This document shows positions 53,423 through 63,805 of a stretch of 64,000 bases of DNA, piece after piece. A program made the translations under genes and the position numbers. Location of the stretch: contig NZ_BMER01000001.1 of NCBI RefSeq assembly GCF_014636865.1, positions 2,778,718 to 2,842,717 on the forward strand. Direction: 5' to 3'. A model generated the notes under the pieces. That model had not been told where the DNA came from. It did no database searches and worked only from the letters and a program-made list of their open reading frames with translations. Each line of letters opens with the position of its first letter. Within the stretch, counting starts at the first letter, position 1. The DNA is from Parapedobacter pyrenivorans (lineage in GTDB: Bacteria > Bacteroidota > Bacteroidia > Sphingobacteriales > Sphingobacteriaceae).

Positions 53423-54610
53423 ATGGATACGTCGAGGTTACTCAAGGCAATTATCGAAAATGCAATCGATGGAATCATCACGATCGACCGGCACGGTATC
53501 GTGGATTCGATCAATCCGGCGGCGTCCAATATTTTCGGATACGAAGCACATGAAGTAATCGGTAACAACGTGTCGATGCTGATGCCCGAACCGGACCACA
53601 GTAGACATGACCAGTATCTCCACAATTACCTGGAGACCGGCGTCAAGAAAATTATCGGTATTGGCAGGGAGGTGAGGGGGTTGCGCAAGGATGGAACGAC
53701 GTTTCCATTCCGATTGGCAGTGAGTGAGGTGCATTATGAAAACAAGATTGCCTTTACCGGCTTCGTACATGACCTGTCAAAAGAAAAGGAGGCGGAGGAA
53801 AAGCTCATCCAACACATGGAGGAGTTGGAAGCAACAGTTAGTAACCGTACAAAAGATTTGATTAAATTGGTGTCCGAACTGGAAAGGACCAAATCCGAGG
53901 TAAGCCAATCGCTAGAAAAGGAAAAGGAACTCAATCAACTCAAATCGCGCTTCGTGTCTATGGCTTCGCATGAGTTTAGAACGCCGCTCAGCGCCGTGCA
54001 GTTGTCGGCCTCGTTAATTGAAAAATATGTAGAAAGGCCGGATCCCGCCAACGTACTCAAGCACACAGCCCGGATTAAAAGTTCGGTGCAGTTGCTGACC
54101 AGTATCCTGAATGACTTTTTATCCCTTGAACGGCTAGAGGCTGGTAAGGTATTGGCAAACAACGAAGAAATAAACCTGGTGGAGCTCGCCGAGGAAATTA
54201 CTGAAGAGATGCAGCTGATCTGCAAAACGAACCAGCATATCGTTTACCAGCATACCGGAGCTAAGGGGGCGTTTGCGTTGGATGCCAACCTGCTTAAAAA
54301 TAGTATCATTAATCTGATTTCCAATGCGATTAAGTATTCGGGCGAAAATACGTTCATTGAATTCAGTACGGAAATCAATGGCGAAACGTGTACGGTTATC
54401 GTAAAAGACGATGGCATCGGCATCCCCAAGGACGATCAGAAAAGCCTTTTTGAGCCGTTTTTCCGCGCGCATAATACAGGCAATATACCAGGTACCGGCT
54501 TGGGTCTTAATATCGTGAAAAGGTACGTGTCACTGATGGGGGGAGAAGTGGCTTGTCACAGTGCGCAGGATAAAGGAGCAATTTTTACACTTACATTCCG
54601 CACATCGTAG
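53423..54610 (+). CDS. FixL-like haem-PAS sensor histidine kinase
   Basis: 395 residues, no membrane segment, so cytoplasmic. The PAS domain covers about 1-125 (LLKAIIENAIDGIITIDRHGIVDSINPAASNIFGY, MLMPEPDHSRHDQYLHNYLETG, IIGIGREVRGLRKDGTTFPFRLAVSEV, FTGFVHDLS). His62 and Arg82 match the haem-ligand His200 and the O2-contacting Arg220 of Bradyrhizobium FixL, with the same 20-residue distance. A coiled coil (125-175) leads to the H-box (SHEFRTPLS, His183) and ATPase motifs NAIKYS, DDGIGIP and GTGLGLNIV. Probable oxygen sensor that phosphorylates the next gene product. Confidence 0.9.
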   Translation: MDTSRLLKAIIENAIDGIITIDRHGIVDSINPAASNIFGYEAHEVIGNNVSMLMPEPDHSRHDQYLHNYLETGVKKIIGIGREVRGLRKDGTTFPFRLAVSEVHYENKIAFTGFVHDLSKEKEAEEKLIQHMEELEATVSNRTKDLIKLVSELERTKSEVSQSLEKEKELNQLKSRFVSMASHEFRTPLSAVQLSASLIEKYVERPDPANVLKHTARIKSSVQLLTSILNDFLSLERLEAGKVLANNEEINLVELAEEITEEMQLICKTNQHIVYQHTGAKGAFALDANLLKNSIINLISNAIKYSGENTFIEFSTEINGETCTVIVKDDGIGIPKDDQKSLFEPFFRAHNTGNIPGTGLGLNIVKRYVSLMGGEVACHSAQDKGAIFTLTFRTS

Positions 54611-54615
54611 GCAAA

Positions 54616-55680
54616 ATGGCAGCTAAGAAAACAACCATATTGATCATCGAAGACAACGATGATATCCGCGAAGGCACGAAGGAAATCCTCGAACTCACCG
54701 GCTATGAGGTGTATACCGCATCCGAAGGAAAGACAGGTGTAGACCTGGCGTTGAAGCACCTGCCGGATGTCATCCTGTGCGATATCATGATGCCGGAACT
54801 GGATGGTTTTGGTGTCCTTTACATGCTTTCCAAACATCAACAAGCCTCAACGATACCTTTTATTTTCATGACAGCCAAGGCCGAACGGGCCGATATGCGC
54901 AAGGCGATGGAGTTAGGGGCGGATGATTACCTGACCAAACCGTTTGATGATATCGAACTGCTGAATGCGATTGAGACCCGTCTGAAAAAACGTAAACAAC
55001 TGGAATCGGAAAGTATCAATCTGAAAAACCTGTACCTGAGCGAGGAGGAACAGGATATATTGCTTCAAGAACTCGTGCAGCGGTCGCGGCTGAAAACCTA
55101 CAAAAAAAAGCAGGCGGTTTACGAAGAAGGCGATACACCCCTGTATGTCTACTTTGTGAAAACAGGTAAGGTGCGGCGGTTCCTGCATTACCTAGACGGC
55201 CGGGAGCTTGCTACGGATATCCATGCAGAGGGTTCGTTTTTTGGCTATGGAGCGGTATTGCTTCAACAGCAGTATACGGATAATGCGGAGACCCTCGAGC
55301 ATGCGGAGCTGGCGCTTATCGAGCGGGATAATTTCTTTGAGTTGCTCTACCGCAAGCCGGGTATCGCCAGCAAATTCATCAAGTTGCTTTCGGGCAATAT
55401 CCGTGGCAAGGAGGCCCAATTATTGGCTTTCGCTTATGATTCCGTTCGCAAACGGGTGGCCAATGCATTAATCCATGTCGCAGACAAGACGTTGTCGGGC
55501 GTAATAGCCGACGAATGCCTAATCCGTATTTCGCGCGATGACCTGGCCTCCCTGGCGGGTACCGCCAATGAAACCATCAGCCGGATGCTTGCCGATTTTA
55601 AGGACGAGAAACTGATTGCGAAGGAGGGAAATGCCATCCGTGTCTTGTCATTGAATAAACTGCGTCACATCAAACAGTAA
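54616..55680 (+). CDS. Response regulator with receiver domain fused to Crp/Fnr DNA-binding module
   Basis: 354 residues. Receiver domain about 1-125: acidic residues in IIEDNDD, phospho-acceptor Asp56 (ILCDIMMPELDG), Thr86 and Lys108. A cNMP-binding-like beta-roll at about 145-260 (VYEEGDTPLYVYFVKTGKVRRFLHYLDGRELATDIHAEGSFFGYGAVL) and a Crp-type winged helix at 270-345 follow, with the recognition helix ETISR (319-323), the same E--SR residues as Fnr. The N-terminal Fe-S cysteines of Fnr are absent. Predicted phosphorylation-driven activator of low-oxygen genes. Starts 5 bp after the kinase stop. Confidence 0.92.
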   Translation: MAAKKTTILIIEDNDDIREGTKEILELTGYEVYTASEGKTGVDLALKHLPDVILCDIMMPELDGFGVLYMLSKHQQASTIPFIFMTAKAERADMRKAMELGADDYLTKPFDDIELLNAIETRLKKRKQLESESINLKNLYLSEEEQDILLQELVQRSRLKTYKKKQAVYEEGDTPLYVYFVKTGKVRRFLHYLDGRELATDIHAEGSFFGYGAVLLQQQYTDNAETLEHAELALIERDNFFELLYRKPGIASKFIKLLSGNIRGKEAQLLAFAYDSVRKRVANALIHVADKTLSGVIADECLIRISRDDLASLAGTANETISRMLADFKDEKLIAKEGNAIRVLSLNKLRHIKQ

Positions 55681-55687
55681 CCCGCCG

Positions 55688-55756
55688 AAAGTGATCTAAA
55701 TCACTTTTTATCCTGATGGCCTTCATCTACGGCTATCGCTGCCCCGTTTAGCTTTG
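55688..55756 (+). promoter_or_regulatory. Fnr-type box and -7 box of the hemN/ccoI operon
   Basis: The 20-bp perfect palindrome AAAGTGAT-N4-ATCACTTT (55688-55707) contains the TGAT-N4-ATCA core recognised by Fnr proteins. TAGCTTTG (55749-55756) is the -7 box; there is no -33 TTG. The palindrome centre lies 51.5 bp before the first base of the -7 box, about -62 from the start, a class I activator position. Confidence 0.85.
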
Positions 55757-55773
55757 TGGAATAATGATGAAAC

Positions 55774-56193
55774 ATGAAAGCTATCGCCTACAGCATAAAA
55801 CCGCAAGAGAAGGAATTTTTAGCAGTAGCCAACGGAAAGAGGCATGATTTGACTTTGATTTCCAATGAATTGAATTCGCAGACTGTGTCCTTCGCGCTTG
55901 GCAAGGACGTTGTGATTATATCGGACTATGACATCCTCGATCGCCAAATGCTTTGGGAGTTAAAAGCGATCAGTGTAACTAAAATCATTACCCGCTCGAA
56001 GACCACTACACATATCGACCTAAAGGAAGCAACACGGATGGGCTTCAATATTGCCAATGTGCCGGAAGAAGACCAGACGCTTGAAAGTATTGCTAAGCAA
56101 ACCATGCGTAATCTCAATGCATGGGATACAGGCAAATGCGTAGGTAAGGCCTGTTGTTGCCAAAAGGTATGTGCAATGGATAGAAAAAGATAG
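55774..56193 (+). CDS. Truncated D-2-hydroxyacid dehydrogenase-like protein with Cys-rich tail
   Basis: 139 residues. MKAIAYSIKPQEKEFLAVANGKRHDLTLISNELN and VTKIITRSKTTTHIDLKEATRMGFNIANVPEED resemble the N-terminal lobe of D-lactate dehydrogenase; the NAD-binding lobe and catalytic His/Glu are absent. The chain ends in NLNAWDTGKCVGKACCCQKVCAMDRKR, with Cys122, 127-129 and 133. First gene behind the Fnr-type box and 4 bp before hemN, so expected to be made at low oxygen. The function is unknown; metal or iron-sulphur binding is an inference from the cysteines. Confidence 0.82.
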   Translation: MKAIAYSIKPQEKEFLAVANGKRHDLTLISNELNSQTVSFALGKDVVIISDYDILDRQMLWELKAISVTKIITRSKTTTHIDLKEATRMGFNIANVPEEDQTLESIAKQTMRNLNAWDTGKCVGKACCCQKVCAMDRKR

Positions 56194-56197
56194 CACC

Positions 56198-57562
56198 ATG
56201 GGAGAAAATAAGATTGTCGACTTGATACAGCGCTATGATGTGGCTGCGCCACGCTATACCAGTTACCCGACGGTACCGTGCTGGGATGGGCAAGGCTGGA
56301 ATTCGGATAACTGGAATCATCACGTCCGTTCGCGCTTCGCAGTGTCATCTTCGCAGGGAATAAGTCTTTATATCCACCTTCCTTTCTGCGAGAGCCTGTG
56401 TACGTATTGCGGATGCAACACACGGATCACGAAGAACCATGGCGTGGAAGAGCCGTATATCGATACGGTATTGGCAGAATGGAAGCTCTATCGCAATTGC
56501 CTCGGCGTGGACGAAATTCCTATTGCCGAATTACATCTTGGTGGCGGAACCCCCACGTTCTTCAGTCCGCACCAGCTTCGCCGCTTGGTTGAAGGATTGC
56601 TGGCGGGGAGCAAGGTGATTGCCGGGGCCTCATTTTCATTCGAGGCTCACCCGGCGAATACAACGGTGGATCATCTCCAAACGTTGTTCGATGTTGGGTT
56701 TAAGAGGCTGAGCCTCGGCATACAGGATTTTGACCCCGAAGTACAGCGGCTAATCAATCGCCGACAAACCGACGCCGACGTAAGGCGGGTGATGGAAGAC
56801 GCCCGCCGCATCGGCTATACGTCTATCAACTTTGACCTGATTTACGGCCTCCCGTTGCAGTCGCCCAAAACGGTTCGCGAAACCATGACAAAGGCGTTGG
56901 CGATGCGGCCCGACCGGATTTCGTTTTATAGTTACGCCCACGTGCCTTGGATGCGACCAGGCCAACGACACTATACCGAGGCCGATCTGCCGACAGGGAG
57001 CGCTAAACTGGAGTTATATCACCTCGGCAAGCGGATGATTGGTCAGGCGGGCTACCGCGATGTGGGCATGGATCATTTTGCTTTGCCGGAAGATCCGTTG
57101 TGCCTTGCTGCGGACGGCGGATCGCTGCACCGGAATTTTATGGGATATACCGATCGGTACACGCCATTGCTTATCGGACTGGGTGTGTCGGCTATCAGCG
57201 ATTCTTGGACGGCTTTTGCGCAGAATGCAAAATCGGTCGAAGCGTATCAGGCACTGGTGAGGGAAGGGAAGCTACCTGTTTTCAAGGGCCATGTACTTAC
57301 GGATATCGATTTACAGATCCGGAAACATATCCTCAATATCATGTGCCGGGGTTTTACGCTATTGGATATGCCCAGTGCGCAGGCGGCCAAGACAATCCGT
57401 CGCCTCACACCATTGCTTGAAGACGGGTTGGCGATATGGGATGGCACTGCCATTAGGGCAACAAAGACCGGCTTCTCGTTCTTGCGCAATATCTGCATGG
57501 CATTCGACGAAAGGTTACATAATAAACAACAGTCAAAGCCGCTATTCAGTAAGGCCGTATGA
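56198..57562 (+). CDS. hemN: Oxygen-independent coproporphyrinogen III oxidase HemN
   Basis: 454 residues, a radical SAM enzyme that decarboxylates coproporphyrinogen III to protoporphyrinogen IX without O2. The opening RYDVAAPRYTSYPTVPCWDG is specific for true HemN. The [4Fe-4S] motif CESLCTYCGC uses Cys64, 68 and 71; GGGTPTFFS and SLGIQDFDPEVQRLINRRQ follow. ATG 56198 (MGENK) is chosen; the upstream extension overlaps the previous gene. It supplies haem for the cbb3 oxidase when oxygen is low, and its stop overlaps ccoI by 4 bp. Confidence 0.96.
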   Translation: MGENKIVDLIQRYDVAAPRYTSYPTVPCWDGQGWNSDNWNHHVRSRFAVSSSQGISLYIHLPFCESLCTYCGCNTRITKNHGVEEPYIDTVLAEWKLYRNCLGVDEIPIAELHLGGGTPTFFSPHQLRRLVEGLLAGSKVIAGASFSFEAHPANTTVDHLQTLFDVGFKRLSLGIQDFDPEVQRLINRRQTDADVRRVMEDARRIGYTSINFDLIYGLPLQSPKTVRETMTKALAMRPDRISFYSYAHVPWMRPGQRHYTEADLPTGSAKLELYHLGKRMIGQAGYRDVGMDHFALPEDPLCLAADGGSLHRNFMGYTDRYTPLLIGLGVSAISDSWTAFAQNAKSVEAYQALVREGKLPVFKGHVLTDIDLQIRKHILNIMCRGFTLLDMPSAQAAKTIRRLTPLLEDGLAIWDGTAIRATKTGFSFLRNICMAFDERLHNKQQSKPLFSKAV

Positions 57563-59958
57563 TAGCTGAGAAAACCAGGTGTTACCATTGCGGTGATCCG
57601 ACTGCCCATACACCGTATGAGCTGGATGACCATGCCTTTTGCTGCTTGGGTTGCCAAACTGTATACCAGGTGTTGCATAGCAATAACATGCAACAATATT
57701 ATCGGTATAATACACATCCCGGAAAGAAAAGGCAAGCGCGCAGTGAACGGTATGATTACCTAGATGAAGCCACAATAGCCGATAAACTCATCGATTTCCG
57801 TAATGAGGAGCTAACGATTATCACCTGTTACATTCCGGCGATCCATTGCAGCTCGTGTATTTGGTTGCTTGAGCACCTGTATAAGTTGCATCCGGCGATT
57901 ATGACATCGCAAAGTGACTTCATGAAGAAGCAGGTGACGATTACGTTCAAACAGGATGAACTCAGTTTGCGCGGGTTGGTGGAGCTGCTCGCGGATGTTG
58001 GCTACGAACCGAAAATCACCCTGCAGGATGTCGTACAAGAAAACCGGAAATTCTCACAGAAAGGGCTGATCGCTAAGATTGCCGTTGCCGGATTTTGTTT
58101 TGGCAATTCGATGATGCTCAGCTTTCCGGAGTACTTCGGAATGGCGGCATTCGAGGCCAGTTATTCGGTGTTTTTCGGCTGGATGAACTTAGCGTTTACG
58201 CTTCCGGTTTTGTTGTATAGCGGCCGGGATTACTTCGGGTCTGCATGGCATAGCCTGCGGCAGCGGCAGCTCAACCTGGATGTACCGCTGGCACTCGGTA
58301 TCTTGGTGCTGTTTCTGCGCACGGCATGGGAGATTATTGGCGGCAGCGGTGCCGGGTTTGCCGATACACTTTGTGGGCTTGTTTTCTTCTTGCTGGTAGG
58401 CCGGTGGGTACAGCAGCGCACCTATCATCACATCTCGTTTGAGCGCGACTACCGATCCTATTTTCCGGTGGCGGTAACCCGCATCACCGAGGATGGTAAT
58501 AAGCCGGTGCCGATAGCAGCCATCCAAGTAGGGGACCGGCTGGTCATCCGGAATAACGAGATCATCCCTGCGGATGCCATCCTTTTGAAAGGAAACGCCG
58601 CTATCGACTTTAGTTTCGTAACCGGAGAATCCCAGCCGGTACGAAAGGTGCTTGGCGAAATCATCTACGCTGGGGGGCGACAGCTGGGAGCGGCAATTGA
58701 ACTGGAAGTAACGAGGGCTGTGTCGCAAAGCTACCTCACCCAGTTGTGGAATAATGAGGCATTCAAGCAATATGAACGGAAATTCCGGACATTCAGTAAT
58801 GTCGTAAGCCGGTATTTTACGATCGCGTTGCTTACGGTGGCAATAACTGCCATGACGTATTGGTTTTTCCAGGATAACCCTGCAAAGGCTTGGGGTGCTT
58901 TTACAGCGGTACTAATTATTGGTTGCCCCTGCGCATTGGCGTTGAGCAGTCCATTTACGCTGTCGGCCGCATTAAGTGTTTTTGACCGAAACCGTTTCTA
59001 CGTAAAGAACACGGCTGCCATTGAACAGTTGGCGGCGATAGACTGCCTGGTTTTTGACAAAACAGGAACCATTTCTTCGCCGGATGCCTCCCGCATGCAT
59101 TTTGAAGGCGACCTTTCGGCAAACGAGCTGGCCATGGTGGTGGCCGTGTGCCGAAACTCCAGCCATCCGGTTAGCCGCGAATTGGTGAATTGGGCTGGGG
59201 CTGTTGCTCCGCTGGTTGCCGCCGATTTCCGTGAGCTACCGGGTGAAGGTATCGAAGCGATTGTCGGTACACATCGTATACGTGTGGGCAGTGGTGCTTT
59301 CATCGGGGTGGTCGATGGTAGTCCAGGTGCAAGCGGAGGAAGCCGGACTTACATCGCTATTGATGAGCGGATAATGGGTTGTTTCCATGCGGAGCAGCCG
59401 TGGCGGCCAAATCTACGAGCCCTAATGGGCAGACTAGCGGACGATTACAAGCTAAACCTGATTTCCGGCGATAACGATCGGGATAAGGATGGGTTGCGCG
59501 GGGTTTTTCCCAGCGATGCGGATTTGTTGTTTGATCGGCTACCTGCAGAAAAACTGGAATATATCCGTTCGTTGCAGACTGCGGGGAGGGCTGTGTGCAT
59601 GTTTGGTGATGGGCTCAATGATGCCGGCGCACTGAAGCAGGCCGATTTGGGAATTGCGGTGAGCGACGATATCAACAACTTCTCACCAGGATGCGATGCG
59701 GTATTGGATGGAAAATCATTTGCCCAGCTGCCACGATTCTTTGCATTTGCAAAAGACGTTCGAAAGGTCATCCATGCAAGTTTCGGAATTTCATTAATGT
59801 ATAATACCGTAGGGCTGAGTTTTGCCGTCATGGGAACGATGTCACCGTTGTTTGCTGCCGTGCTGATGCCGTTGAGTACGGTCACCATTATCGGATTTAC
59901 GACGGTGGCCACTCATTTATATGCTATTAAAAACCATCTTAATAAGGATTTGTCATGA
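57559..59958 (+). CDS. ccoI: Copper-transporting P1B-type ATPase CcoI/FixI
   Basis: 799 residues. The N-terminus has a Cys-rich metal site (CYHCGDPTAH ... FCCLGCQTVYQVL) and an HMA domain with CSSCIWLLEHL. Eight membrane helices follow, with the CPC motif at 456-458 (GCPCALALS), TGES in the actuator domain (VTGESQPV) and the phosphorylation site DKTGT at Asp500. It exports or delivers copper for assembly of the CuB centre of cbb3 oxidase. It overlaps hemN and ccoS by 4 bp each, so it belongs to one operon. Confidence 0.95.
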   Translation: MIAEKTRCYHCGDPTAHTPYELDDHAFCCLGCQTVYQVLHSNNMQQYYRYNTHPGKKRQARSERYDYLDEATIADKLIDFRNEELTIITCYIPAIHCSSCIWLLEHLYKLHPAIMTSQSDFMKKQVTITFKQDELSLRGLVELLADVGYEPKITLQDVVQENRKFSQKGLIAKIAVAGFCFGNSMMLSFPEYFGMAAFEASYSVFFGWMNLAFTLPVLLYSGRDYFGSAWHSLRQRQLNLDVPLALGILVLFLRTAWEIIGGSGAGFADTLCGLVFFLLVGRWVQQRTYHHISFERDYRSYFPVAVTRITEDGNKPVPIAAIQVGDRLVIRNNEIIPADAILLKGNAAIDFSFVTGESQPVRKVLGEIIYAGGRQLGAAIELEVTRAVSQSYLTQLWNNEAFKQYERKFRTFSNVVSRYFTIALLTVAITAMTYWFFQDNPAKAWGAFTAVLIIGCPCALALSSPFTLSAALSVFDRNRFYVKNTAAIEQLAAIDCLVFDKTGTISSPDASRMHFEGDLSANELAMVVAVCRNSSHPVSRELVNWAGAVAPLVAADFRELPGEGIEAIVGTHRIRVGSGAFIGVVDGSPGASGGSRTYIAIDERIMGCFHAEQPWRPNLRALMGRLADDYKLNLISGDNDRDKDGLRGVFPSDADLLFDRLPAEKLEYIRSLQTAGRAVCMFGDGLNDAGALKQADLGIAVSDDINNFSPGCDAVLDGKSFAQLPRFFAFAKDVRKVIHASFGISLMYNTVGLSFAVMGTMSPLFAAVLMPLSTVTIIGFTTVATHLYAIKNHLNKDLS

Positions 59959-60408: not shown

Positions 60409-60526
60409 AATTGTTTCGCTACTCCAAAGGTAACAATTTCATTTCCATTCTGCGACTGCTGATCAGTCGAGCTATCGTTTTTCCAGATGCATTCCCGATC
60501 GACGGCTTATTGCACAGGTACGAAAT

Positions 60527-60593
60527 AGTGATCATCATCACTTTTAAACCCGATACCAATCACTCGAATGACACTGCGATGACGGTAATTTTA
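60527..60593 (+). promoter_or_regulatory. Fnr-type box and -7 box of ccoNO
   Basis: Palindrome AGTGAT-CATC-ATCACT (60527-60542) and -7-like TAATTTTA (60586-60593, one mismatch to TAnnTTTG). The centre-to-box distance is 51.5 bp, identical to the site before 55774. There is no -33 TTG. The rest of the 208-bp gap between the divergent genes shows nothing more. Confidence 0.82.
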
Positions 60594-60616: not shown

Positions 60617-62743
60617 ATGCAGCTAACTAAATTTAATTACGACAACAAAATCGTCAGGGACTTTGGCATCGCCACGATCGTTTGGGGGATCATCGGGATG
60701 TCTGTGGGCTTACTGGTAGCCATACAGCTGGTATGGCCATTTATGAATTTCGAATTGCAATATACGACGTTCGGACGTGTGCGCCCTCTACATACAAATG
60801 CAGTTGTTTTTGCATTTGTCGGTAATGGCATCTTCATGGGGGTTTATTATTCACTGCAGCGACTGCTCAAAGCCCGGATGTACAGCGACTTCCTGAGCCG
60901 GGTACATTTCTGGGGCTGGCAACTCATCATTGTAGCAGCCGCCATTACCTTGCCGTTGGGCCTCACCACCTCGCATGAATATGCGGAGTTGGAATGGCCT
61001 ATTGACGTGGCTATCACCCTCATCTGGGTGGTTTTCGGTATCAACATGTTTGGTACCATCATCAAGCGGCGCGAGCGCCATATGTATGTAGCCATTTGGT
61101 TTTACATTGCTACGTTTGTCACGATTGCCGTGTTGCACATTGTGAATTCGGCACAGCTGCCCATTTCGATGTGGAAAAGCTATTACCTGTATGCCGGCGT
61201 GCAGGATGCGCTGGTGCAATGGTGGTACGGGCATAATGCGGTGGCGTTTTTCTTGACTACGCCGTATCTGGGTATGATGTATTACTTCCTGCCCAAAATG
61301 GCCAACCGGCCTATTTACTCCTATAAACTCAGTATTCTGCATTTTTGGTCGTTGATTTTCATCTACATCTGGGCCGGCCCGCACCACCTATTATATACCG
61401 CCCTGCCGGGCTGGGTGCAGTCCCTTGGCGTCGCCTTTTCCGTGATGCTTATTGCCCCAAGCTGGGGTGGGATGATCAACGGACTGCTCACGCTACGTGG
61501 TGCGTGGGATAAAGTACGCACCGATCCTACTTTGAAATTCATGGTCGTGGCGCTTACCGCTTATGGCATGGCCACGTTTGAAGGGCCGATGCTCTCGCTG
61601 AAGCAGGTCAATGCCATCGCACATTTCACTGACTGGATTGTGGCCCACGTGCATGTCGGGGCGCTGGGATGGAACGGTTTTATGACATTTGCCATCCTAT
61701 ATTGGCTGATACCCCGTATTTATAAAACCGAGCTGTATTCGAAAAAGTTGGCTTCCGCACATTTCTGGATCGGTACACTGGGCATTCTTTTCTATGCGAT
61801 TCCGATGTATTGGGCTGCCGTGGTACAGGGGTTGATGTGGAAAGAGTTTACGCCCGAAGGCGTGTTGAAATATCCAAATTTCCTGGCTACCACGCTTCAG
61901 ATTATACCCATGCATCTACTGCGTGCAATAGGCGGCGCCCTCTACTTATCGGGCGTGATCCTGATGACCTACAACCTAGTGAAAACCATGAAGCAGGGGC
62001 GGCTTTTAGCCAATGAGCCGGCCGAAGCGCCCGAACTAACACCCGTACTCGTCAACGAACGTGCACCACACCGCCGATTGGAGCGTAAGCCCATCTTGTT
62101 TATGGTGCTGGCACTGATCACCATTTTGATTGGTGGCATCGTTCAAATGATGCCTACCTTCATGATTTCGTCCAACGTGCCTACCATATCCAGTGTACAA
62201 CCCTATACCGCATTAGAACTGCAGGGCCGCGACCTGTACATCCGCGAAGGGTGTGTCAACTGCCATACGCAGACTGTCCGCCCATTCCGTTCGGAAACCG
62301 TGCGCTATGGGGAGTATAGCAAAGCTGGCGAATTTGTCTATGACCATCCCTTCCTTTGGGGATCAAAACGGACGGGGCCAGACCTCCATCGCATCGGTAA
62401 GAAATATCCGCATAAGTGGCATTTCGATCACATGCTGGATCCGACAATTACCTCTCCCGGAAGCATCATGCCGCCCTATCCCTGGCTGATCGAGCAATCG
62501 TTGGATACGACAGCAACCAAAGCTAAACTGAATGCTATGCGGCTATTGGGGGTGCCGTATACCGATGCGGATATCAATACCGCAAATGTTGACCTCAGCG
62601 AGCAGGCCGAAGCAATCGCTGCCGAAATGGGCCAGCAGGGTGTGGATGTACGGGCCGATCGAGAGATCATCGCGATGATCGCCTATCTCCAACGGTTGGG
62701 GACGGACATCAACGTACCAGCAGGAACGGCAACGAATGAATAA
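60617..62743 (+). CDS. ccoNO: cbb3-type cytochrome c oxidase, fused subunits I and II (CcoN-CcoO)
   Basis: 708 residues. Residues 1 to about 480 are CcoN: twelve membrane helices with haem and CuB ligands in PLHTNAVVFAFVGNG, WWYGHNAVAFFLTTPYLGMMYYFLPK, WAGPHHLLYTALPGW and HFTDWIVAHVHVGALGWNG. From about 490 a membrane helix (PILFMVLALITILIGGIVQMMPTF) leads into CcoO, with a c-type haem motif CVNCHTQTVRPF (Cys546, Cys549, His550) and LWGSKRTGPDLHRIGKKY. The two are separate genes in Proteobacteria; the fusion is known in Bacteroidota. High-affinity terminal oxidase for low oxygen. Confidence 0.96.
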   Translation: MQLTKFNYDNKIVRDFGIATIVWGIIGMSVGLLVAIQLVWPFMNFELQYTTFGRVRPLHTNAVVFAFVGNGIFMGVYYSLQRLLKARMYSDFLSRVHFWGWQLIIVAAAITLPLGLTTSHEYAELEWPIDVAITLIWVVFGINMFGTIIKRRERHMYVAIWFYIATFVTIAVLHIVNSAQLPISMWKSYYLYAGVQDALVQWWYGHNAVAFFLTTPYLGMMYYFLPKMANRPIYSYKLSILHFWSLIFIYIWAGPHHLLYTALPGWVQSLGVAFSVMLIAPSWGGMINGLLTLRGAWDKVRTDPTLKFMVVALTAYGMATFEGPMLSLKQVNAIAHFTDWIVAHVHVGALGWNGFMTFAILYWLIPRIYKTELYSKKLASAHFWIGTLGILFYAIPMYWAAVVQGLMWKEFTPEGVLKYPNFLATTLQIIPMHLLRAIGGALYLSGVILMTYNLVKTMKQGRLLANEPAEAPELTPVLVNERAPHRRLERKPILFMVLALITILIGGIVQMMPTFMISSNVPTISSVQPYTALELQGRDLYIREGCVNCHTQTVRPFRSETVRYGEYSKAGEFVYDHPFLWGSKRTGPDLHRIGKKYPHKWHFDHMLDPTITSPGSIMPPYPWLIEQSLDTTATKAKLNAMRLLGVPYTDADINTANVDLSEQAEAIAAEMGQQGVDVRADREIIAMIAYLQRLGTDINVPAGTATNE

Positions 62744-62947: not shown

Positions 62948-63805
62948 ATGCAGCAGACCATGAAAATAATCGCCTTAGATTCTTCCAACGATACCCTGAT
63001 TGTTGCGCTCTTTGTGGTCATGGTGGTCGTATTGATCGCTGCATTGGTGGTGTTACGGGCCATGCGTGTGATGTTACGTGTTACAATGCCACACGTGCTG
63101 GAAGCAGAAAAAGTAAGTTTGACTGAGGCTAAGTTCGTACGGCGGAATCGACGCCAGCAGTGGTGGAACAAACTGATGGGACTGCGCCCGCTAGCGGAGG
63201 AAAAGGATCTCGTCATTGACCACGAATATGATGGCATTACCGAGTTGGACAATCCGGTTCCTGCCTGGTTCAACGGCATGTTTTACGCCAGCTTGGCCTT
63301 TGCTGTGGTTTACTTATGTGTATATCATGTGTTTGGTTGGGGGCTCAATCAAGATCAGGAGTACGACCGTGAAATGGCACGTGCGGAGCAGGCAAGGCAG
63401 GAGTGGCTGGCACAAGCTGCAGACAATGTTGACGAAAATACCGTAACGGTAGATACGGATCCCCAAACGGTGGCAGCCGGAATGGCGATCTTCACCCAGA
63501 ATTGCATCGCCTGCCATGGGGGAGCCGGCGAAGGAGGGATTGGACCAAACTTGGCGGATGACTACTGGCTTCACGGTGGCAAAGTGCAGGATATATTCAA
63601 GGTGATAAAGTATGGCGTACTGGATAAAGGCATGGTGCCTTGGGAGCAGAGCCTCACACCGGCGCAGATTGCCGAAGTGACGAACTACATCATTACGCTC
63701 CGTGGTACAAACCCACCAAATGCCAAGGATCCGCAGGGGGAAAAGGTTGAGTATGAGGCTAAGGAACACAGCGAAGCAGTTGATCCGGCCGCTACAGCGG
63801 GATAA
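62948..63805 (+). CDS. ccoP: cbb3 oxidase subunit III, mono-haem CcoP
   Basis: 285 residues. Two membrane helices (LIVALFVVMVVVLIAALVVL and the FixP_N-type ELDNPVPAWFNGMFYASLAFAVVYLCVYHVFGWG), then one cytochrome c domain with CIACHGGAGEGGIGPNLADDYW (Cys186, Cys189, His190). Proteobacterial CcoP has two haem domains; only one CxxCH is present here. The extra N-terminal helix is a Bacteroidota feature. It passes electrons from the periplasmic donor to CcoO. Starts directly after the ccoQ stop. Confidence 0.93.
   Translation: MQQTMKIIALDSSNDTLIVALFVVMVVVLIAALVVLRAMRVMLRVTMPHVLEAEKVSLTEAKFVRRNRRQQWWNKLMGLRPLAEEKDLVIDHEYDGITELDNPVPAWFNGMFYASLAFAVVYLCVYHVFGWGLNQDQEYDREMARAEQARQEWLAQAADNVDENTVTVDTDPQTVAAGMAIFTQNCIACHGGAGEGGIGPNLADDYWLHGGKVQDIFKVIKYGVLDKGMVPWEQSLTPAQIAEVTNYIITLRGTNPPNAKDPQGEKVEYEAKEHSEAVDPAATAG

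Follow-up and report, generated by a model that had tools for sequence, protein, structure and literature searches.

The DNA considered here, which we call the window, is a stretch of 64,000 nucleotides of the forward strand of Parapedobacter pyrenivorans (NZ_BMER01000001.1, positions 2,778,718 to 2,842,717; assembly GCF_014636865.1). It carries a gene for a FixL-like histidine kinase and, directly behind it, a gene for a response regulator in which a receiver domain is fused to a Crp/Fnr module (REC-Crp). Genes for haem synthesis and the cbb3 oxidase lie downstream. We consider it probable that the two proteins form an oxygen circuit that acts directly on the haem and cbb3 promoters. In its simplest reading, the sequence describes a direct circuit from kinase to activator, because the kinase has a FixL-type pocket, the regulator combines a phosphorylatable receiver with a Crp/Fnr module free of Fe-S and cAMP residues, and conserved sites occur at two cbb3-linked promoters. 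The domain architecture, the invariant catalytic and haem-pocket residues, the dyads with their spacing, and the co-occurrence of the genes argue strongly for the wiring.

The kinase comprises a PAS domain (residues 7-117), a HisKA domain (174-241) and a HATPase_c domain (287-393); all Pfam calls on it and on REC-Crp exceed the curated cut-offs. As the PAS domain begins at residue 7, the kinase is probably soluble. FixL structures are the top match of the PAS domain (Bradyrhizobium FixL, E 4.9e-32), followed by DosP, and the histidine and arginine of the FixL haem pocket are both present, as H62 and R82. Judging by the roles of their FixL counterparts, we take His62 to be the haem-ligand position and Arg82 to be the O2-linked arginine. 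The relatives used for comparison are the best 80 of 197 loci (L009-L088), all with Sphingobacteriaceae names, and H62, R82 and H183 are kept in every one of them. The kinase and REC-Crp genes are also same-strand neighbours in 80/80, at gaps of -13 to 199 bases, so their pairing is more than chance. The nearest named relative is P. soli, whose REC-Crp is 86% identical. The initial annotation had spoken of a FixL-like kinase, and the pocket bears this out. The NCBIfam FixL score is far under its cut-off (170 against 850 bits), and for this reason FixL-like, not FixL, is a fair name. Membership of FixL, FixJ or FixK was rejected, all of the curated NCBIfam scores being below cut-off (for REC-Crp, FixJ 69.6 vs 255 and FixK, a Caulobacter model, 71 vs 300 bits).

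The REC-Crp frame opens 5 bp after the kinase frame ends and contains Response_reg (residues 8-120, 102.5 bits), cNMP_binding (160-244) and HTH_Crp_2 (279-351) domains; PF00027 and PF13545, both above cut-off, place it in the Crp/Fnr superfamily. Its receiver has the acidic pair, phospho-Asp, Thr and Lys of response regulators (E12, D13, D56, T86, K108), invariant in all 81 sequences (the 80 relatives and the window). Within the recognition helix, E319-T-(I/V)-S-R323, the residues E319, T320, S322 and R323 are likewise identical in 81/81. Control by cAMP is unlikely, since the Glu and Arg of the cAMP cassette are replaced by Tyr211 (75/81) and Tyr220 (80/81) in an alignment to T. thermophilus CAP (4ev0), which is also the best solved fold match. 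The only cysteines are Cys55 and Cys301, so that the Fe-S set, and with it the N-terminal CxxC...C motif of FNR, is lacking. Both cAMP and Fe-S control of the Crp half were rejected on these grounds. An AF2 model (pLDDT 82) contains both domains, with uninformative packing, and no full-length REC-Crp structure is among the 50 best fold matches listed.

The window holds only two exact copies of GTGAT-N4-ATCAC, at 55691 and 60528, which we take as putative operators, one before dldhN-hemN-ccoI and the other before ccoNO. When the relatives were scanned with AAGTGA-N6-TCACTT (minimum score 9 of 12, up to 200 bp upstream, against shuffles that preserve base composition only), the dyad was found upstream of dldhN in 67/78 loci (9.7 in shuffles) and upstream of ccoNO in 35/35 (3.2 in shuffles). 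Counts were close to or under those of the shuffles before hemN (7/79, shuffles 7.6), ccoI (8/79, 8.3), the kinase gene (1/81, 8.8), the REC-Crp gene (8/81, 6.8) or ccoP (1/35, 4.9). In the 78 dldhN promoters the dyad centre is separated from the T of the TAnnTTTG box by 51 bp (63 promoters) or 52 bp (13 promoters); 27 of the 35 ccoNO promoters have a spacing of 51 bp. When 111 promoters are aligned solely on the -7 box, with the dyad unused, and thinned to 80 representatives of less than 70% identity, this dyad (dyad I) emerges together with a weaker dyad II 22 bp downstream, over flanks that average 0.07 bits. At each position of TGA and TCA in dyad I the commonest letter occurs in 64 to 75 of the 80, and the CA of dyad II is invariant (80/80). 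An excerpt of work on Flavobacterium psychrophilum places the TAnnTTTG box at -12 to -5 (PMC9723704). If this numbering applies, dyad II, whose centre is spaced 29 bp from that T, would be centred at -41.5, the position expected in a class II CRP/FNR-dependent promoter, and dyad I at -63.5.

It is the target and not the regulator that the dyad accompanies, because it is kept 5' of dldhN where the regulator gene is elsewhere or on the opposite strand (L018, L020, L024, L026, L060, L133), and also before unlinked ccoNO. The latter holds for 13/13 upstream regions, taken from 13 of the 17 Sphingobacterium-type genomes having both kinase and ccoNO, with spacings of 51 bp in seven and 52 bp in six. 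The six are L176-L180 and L184, of which L176 is taken as the genome of L025, where the dldhN spacing is 51 bp; a dldhN spacing of 52 bp is seen in 13 Sphingobacterium loci (L044-L048, L050, L051, L053-L058). Most of what the initial annotation had read from the letters alone agrees with these analyses, namely a kinase followed 5 bp later by a receiver-Crp/Fnr fusion, the receiver residues Asp56, Thr86 and Lys108, an Fnr-type ETISR helix, the lack of Fe-S cysteines, two palindromes, and likely targets downstream. The downstream genes are hemN, a ccoI-type ATPase, ccoNO and ccoP, with the small frame dldhN preceding them (Table 1).

In the circuit that we propose, the kinase would bind haem through H62. 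At low O2 the gas would leave the haem, the kinase would autophosphorylate on H183, and the phosphate would pass to D56 of REC-Crp. The receiver would here replace the ligand of CRP or the Fe-S cluster of FNR, with phosphorylation favouring the DNA-binding dimer. One or more such dimers would bind the two dyads, which lie two helical turns apart (AAGTGA-N6-TCACTT, centred near -63.5, and TRA-N6-TCA, the weaker of the two, near -41.5), and would activate promoters with a TAnnTTTG/A -7 box. Switching on dldhN-hemN-ccoI would provide haem synthesis without O2 and a supply of copper, and switching on ccoNO-ccoP would provide the high-affinity cbb3 oxidase. Haem occupancy, the O2 signal, phosphotransfer, dimerisation, binding and activation are steps that we infer. 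Crp/Fnr proteins are known as direct sensors of small molecules or of redox state. A conserved form gated by phosphorylation would mean that a receiver domain can drive the CRP allosteric switch, and the circuit would explain how cbb3 expression is coupled to O2 in many Bacteroidota without an Fe-S Fnr at the locus. We found no description in the open-licence papers searched of a phospho-switched class of Crp/Fnr activators, nor of a FixL-like kinase paired with a REC-Crp regulator in Bacteroidota.

Table 1. Coordinates of the kinase, the REC-Crp regulator, their predicted operators and the neighbouring genes (window positions, except for the last row).
Feature	Position	Strand	Basis or remark
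FixL-like histidine kinase, PAS-HisKA-HATPase_c, 395 aa	53423..54610	+	ORF, Pfam
PAS domain, FixL-type haem pocket (LMPEPDHSRHD ... IIGIGR)	53441..53773	+	Pfam, structure matches, alignment
His62, counterpart of B. japonicum FixL His200	53606..53608	+	alignment; 80/80 relatives
Arg82, counterpart of FixL Arg220	53666..53668	+	80/80 relatives
His183, predicted phospho-acceptor (SHEFRTPL)	53969..53971	+	HisKA; 80/80 relatives
REC-Crp/Fnr fusion response regulator, 354 aa	54616..55680	+	ORF, Pfam, AF2 model
Receiver domain (E12, D13, D56, T86, K108)	54637..54975	+	Pfam, alignment
Asp56, predicted phosphorylation site	54781..54783	+	81/81
cNMP_binding fold; cAMP-cassette Glu, Arg replaced by Tyr211, Tyr220	55093..55347	+	Pfam, alignment
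HTH_Crp_2 DNA-binding domain	55450..55668	+	Pfam
Recognition helix core ETISR	55570..55584	+	alignment
Dyad I of the dldhN-hemN-ccoI promoter, AAGTGATCTAAATCACTT, centred near -63.5	55689..55706	+	motif scans
Dyad II, TGA-N6-TCA, centre about -41.5, before dldhN	55714..55725	+	box-anchored alignment
-7 box TAGCTTTG, dldhN promoter; spacing to centre of dyad I 51 bp	55749..55756	+	consensus and position per PMC9723704 (excerpt)
dldhN, small ORF: N-terminal part of 2-Hacid_dh with Cys-rich tail (GKACCCQKVC)	55774..56193	+	first gene of proposed target operon
hemN, oxygen-independent coproporphyrinogen III oxidase	56198..57562	+	TIGR00538 above cut-off
P-type ATPase of ccoI type, judged from its metal-binding domain and gene neighbourhood	57559..59958	+	PF12156, PF00122
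Dyad I, TAGTGATCATCATCACTT, before ccoNO	60526..60543	+	motif scans
Dyad II, CGA-N6-TCA, before ccoNO	60551..60562	+	box-anchored alignment
-7 box TAATTTTA (TAnnTTTA), ccoNO promoter; spacing to centre of dyad I 51 bp	60586..60593	+	pattern scan
ccoNO fusion, cbb3 oxidase subunits I/II	60617..62743	+	NF011053 above cut-off
ccoP, cbb3 oxidase subunit III	62948..63805	+	FixP_N and cytochrome c domains
Third tandem TGA-N6-TCA site with TACCTTTG box	G000:C1:2207331-2207395 (L092, L266)	minus	before 202-aa Crp gene

The kinase and the oxidase tend to be present or absent together. Of 151 family genomes, 107 contain the kinase (A2, counted at E <=1e-110) and 111 contain ccoNO (PF02433, E <1e-90). 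Both occur in 99, the kinase alone in 8, ccoNO alone in 12 and neither in 32 (Fisher p 1e-15, uncorrected for kinship, as are all of our counts save the 70% representatives of the promoter alignment). Inside genera that otherwise have both, the two are jointly absent from G087, G048, G035, G062, G101, G040, five g21 genomes and others, as joint loss would give.

The genomes that have ccoNO and lack the kinase offer a second arrangement. Four of the 12 (G023, G008, G004, G010) carry a plain Crp/Fnr protein with an N-terminal CxxC...C motif (L160, L161, L163, L164), and the recognition helix of this Fe-S-type Fnr is TATET(A/V)IRLL, as against TANETISRML in REC-Crp. The plain regulators L158 (G029, another of the 12) and L162 (G073) are without the motif. 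We took ccoNO promoters from seven of the 12 genomes; G004 and G010 were seen as L163 and L164, and G008, G043 and G070 were left out. The palindrome is ATGA-N6-TCAT in 7/7, with a -7 box at 29 bp in three, at 51 bp in one and at no assigned distance in three, and in L163 and L164 it also stands 29 bp from the box. A tree of 81 Crp halves, which has two very long branches and from which 4 of 85 rows had been dropped beforehand (matched stretch <=130 residues), unites ten plain regulators in one clade (100/99), its deep REC-Crp branches being compatible with a single origin and with more than one. The CxxC...C motif is present in six of the ten (L160, L161, L163, L164, L232, L233) and absent from four (L158, L162, L234, L235). 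Tentatively, and with slightly more doubt than belief, we suggest that cbb3 and haem genes in Sphingobacteriaceae are driven either by an Fe-S Fnr or by a REC-Crp under a haem kinase, the operator having switched from a single ATGA-N6-TCAT (about -41.5) to a tandem, mostly GTGA pair (about -63.5 and -41.5). If true, this would be a natural swap of oxygen sensors on one output module, together with a phospho-switched Crp/Fnr.

With at most one mismatch, AAGTGA-N6-TCACTT occurs at 11 sites in the P. pyrenivorans genome against 5 in the control, and TAnnTTT follows at 51 bp only at the two sites of the window; a large regulon at the level of the consensus was rejected on this ground. The looser TGA-N6-TCA-N45-TAnnTTT gives 11 matches against 4. 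A strict tandem pattern occurs in three places and not in the control, two of the three being in the window. The remaining one precedes a Crp gene (L100) that is divergent from genes for a cytochrome c and nosZ/nosL/nosD/nosF-like proteins, names that were read from translations. An L100-type gene is present in 4/41 genomes; one of two other members of the genus that were sampled has it, with the tandem kept at 52 and 30 bp (L267). The third site may be a target of REC-Crp, or it may serve the self-control of that Crp protein. Across 42 genomes with the kinase, the strict tandem pattern (at most one mismatch) gives 140 matches against 19 in the control.

REC-Crp proteins are widespread across many families of Bacteroidia. 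We picked 36 loci of other families (L196-L231) from a class-wide list; 30 have an adjacent same-strand kinase and six have none. The ccoNO gene is on the fetched piece in eight (L196, L200, L202, L206, L209, L210, L227, L228), five of which also have an adjacent kinase. The PAS domains of these kinases mostly have His at position 62 without the FixL pocket, those of L204, L211 and L213 being FixL-like. Spaced dyads behind the regulator gene are few in the 28 loci L196-L223, with tandem dyads at 51 and 29 bp in L204 and L208 and single ones at 30 bp in L199 and at 29 bp in L206. In family f4 (L224-L231, of which L227 and L228 are near copies), seven of eight loci carry, right behind the regulator, one dyad spaced 29 bp from a -7 box, and several have Usp-like genes after it, as read from the sequence. 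The initial annotation had suggested scoring the co-occurrence of the REC plus Crp architecture with cbb3 genes. Within the family the kinase and ccoNO do co-occur; the architecture itself is common in Bacteroidia, mostly with other PAS kinases.

Known systems share parts of this design. The FixL-FixJ-FixK2 chain of Bradyrhizobium and the hFixL-FxkR-FixK chain of Rhizobium, as presented in excerpts of PMC7888657 and PMC9104804, have in common with it a FixL-type haem PAS kinase, a Crp/Fnr-type activator and cbb3 targets. In these chains a separate response regulator induces fixK, whereas the Parapedobacter locus has the receiver and the Crp/Fnr module in one protein. The operators also differ, the rhizobial anaerobox being TTGAT-N4-ATCAA (PMC7888657, excerpt) and the Parapedobacter site a tandem of AAGTGA-N6-TCACTT and TRA-N6-TCA. 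Because an Fe-S-type Fnr occurs in four kinase-less sister genomes and ATGA-N6-TCAT sites precede ccoNO in all seven sampled, the likeness to the rhizobial chain is one of analogy only, and the local counterpart of the kinase/REC-Crp circuit looks like Fnr. The proposal that the pair replaces FixL-FixJ-FixK, made in the initial annotation, is to be read in this sense, the NCBIfam scores pointing the same way. Its idea of a cascade collapsed into one step agrees with a direct circuit as the simplest reading, yet the cascade may not be fully collapsed, given the tandem site before the nosZ-adjacent Crp gene. Fe-S FNR at cbb3 genes shares with REC-Crp the fold and class of activator and a dyad spaced 29 bp from the -7 box, near -41.5. 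FNR itself senses O2 via its N-terminal cysteines; REC-Crp has a receiver in their place and differs in recognition helix and outer site base. CRP shares the cNMP fold and HTH with REC-Crp, which is without the Glu and Arg of the cAMP cassette. Other Bacteroidia pairs of REC-Crp and PAS kinase (e.g. L224-L231) have the same domain order (Pfam, L228), but most of their PAS domains lack the LMPEPD/IIGIGR pocket, and their dyad is single.

Several observations weigh against a dedicated oxygen circuit of this kind. At the protein level, PAS pocket positions 68 (N for R) and 76 (K for H) differ from B. japonicum FixL, and the domain arrangement of the AF2 model is unreliable (pTM 0.40), which is why we only infer the phospho-switch mechanism. 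L208 has tandem dyads despite a Tyr and a Lys instead of H62 and R82. Among the promoters, 11/78 before dldhN score below 9. The -7 box of L014 is at 29 bp and L076 has none, and dyad I varies from GTGA...TCAC in its outer letters (left G 54/80, right C 41/80). Eight of 107 kinase genomes are without ccoNO, although two of these, G009 and G147, are 71 and 77% complete. Of the four genomes with an Fe-S-type Fnr, only two (L163, L164) have cco genes next to it, none being seen on the short pieces L160 and L161. The kinase-less control genome L190, too, has a -7-like box with a palindrome at a spacing of 51 bp. Finally, the tandem pattern exceeds its control even in 19 kinase-less genomes (26 vs 10; 61 genomes in total), and the P. 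pyrenivorans genome encodes 14 other cNMP_binding proteins that could bind the dyads.

These last two points would suit the view that another Crp/Fnr protein binds the dyads while the kinase/REC-Crp pair controls something else, as would the tandem TGA-N6-TCA in the promoter of L100 itself, one of the 15 cNMP_binding proteins when REC-Crp is included. We regard this as distinctly unlikely. The dyad accompanies the pair in many genera, whereas L100 is found in few genomes; the seven kinase-less genomes sampled have ATGA-N6-TCAT before ccoNO rather than a dyad with mostly G and C as outer letters; and the Fnr found in four of the 12 genomes with ccoNO alone has the TATET(A/V)IRLL helix instead of TANETISRML. 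It is unlikely, too, that a kinase of FixL fold responds to NO, CO or redox state instead of O2, or acts mainly as a phosphatase. Haem PAS kinases do respond to several gases, and the two altered pocket positions would allow for another signal, but H62 and R82 are kept throughout the relatives and the targets are genes of low-O2 respiration.

That the receiver is cross-regulated, with other kinases driving REC-Crp, or that DNA is bound without phosphate, seems very unlikely. REC-Crp paralogues without an adjacent FixL-type kinase do exist (e.g. L134, L135, L141), as do the other-family loci with no adjacent kinase, but within the relatives the adjacency and the phosphorylation residues are invariant. 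The palindrome behind the regulator gene might also be a transcription terminator, since a T-rich stretch lies behind it and its folding energy is -10.1 kcal/mol (z -2.5). We find this hardly credible and rejected it: the palindrome keeps its place before dldhN, not behind the regulator gene, in the six loci that have these genes separated or on opposite strands, ccoNO is preceded by the same dyad, and the spacing to the -7 box is fixed.

The assignments of two target genes deserve a comment. The ccoI-type ATPase is above the cut-off of TIGR01494 and below that of the copper-specific TIGR01511, and ccoP scores under the cut-off of TIGR00782. In relatives dldhN is conserved and mostly lies directly 5' of hemN-ccoI; in L137 it is on the opposite strand. 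The cluster is broken in Sphingobacterium (L015-L058), where some 17 to 30 kb separate ccoNO from the kinase/REC-Crp pair in six single-contig genomes. Many Sphingobacterium contigs stop about 1 kb past ccoI, and because so many assemblies break there, a repeat such as an rRNA operon is suggested. A second, distant FixO-like cytochrome domain occurs in a separate frame of ~330-380 residues (G000:C7:90966-91427), with similar ones in other genomes.

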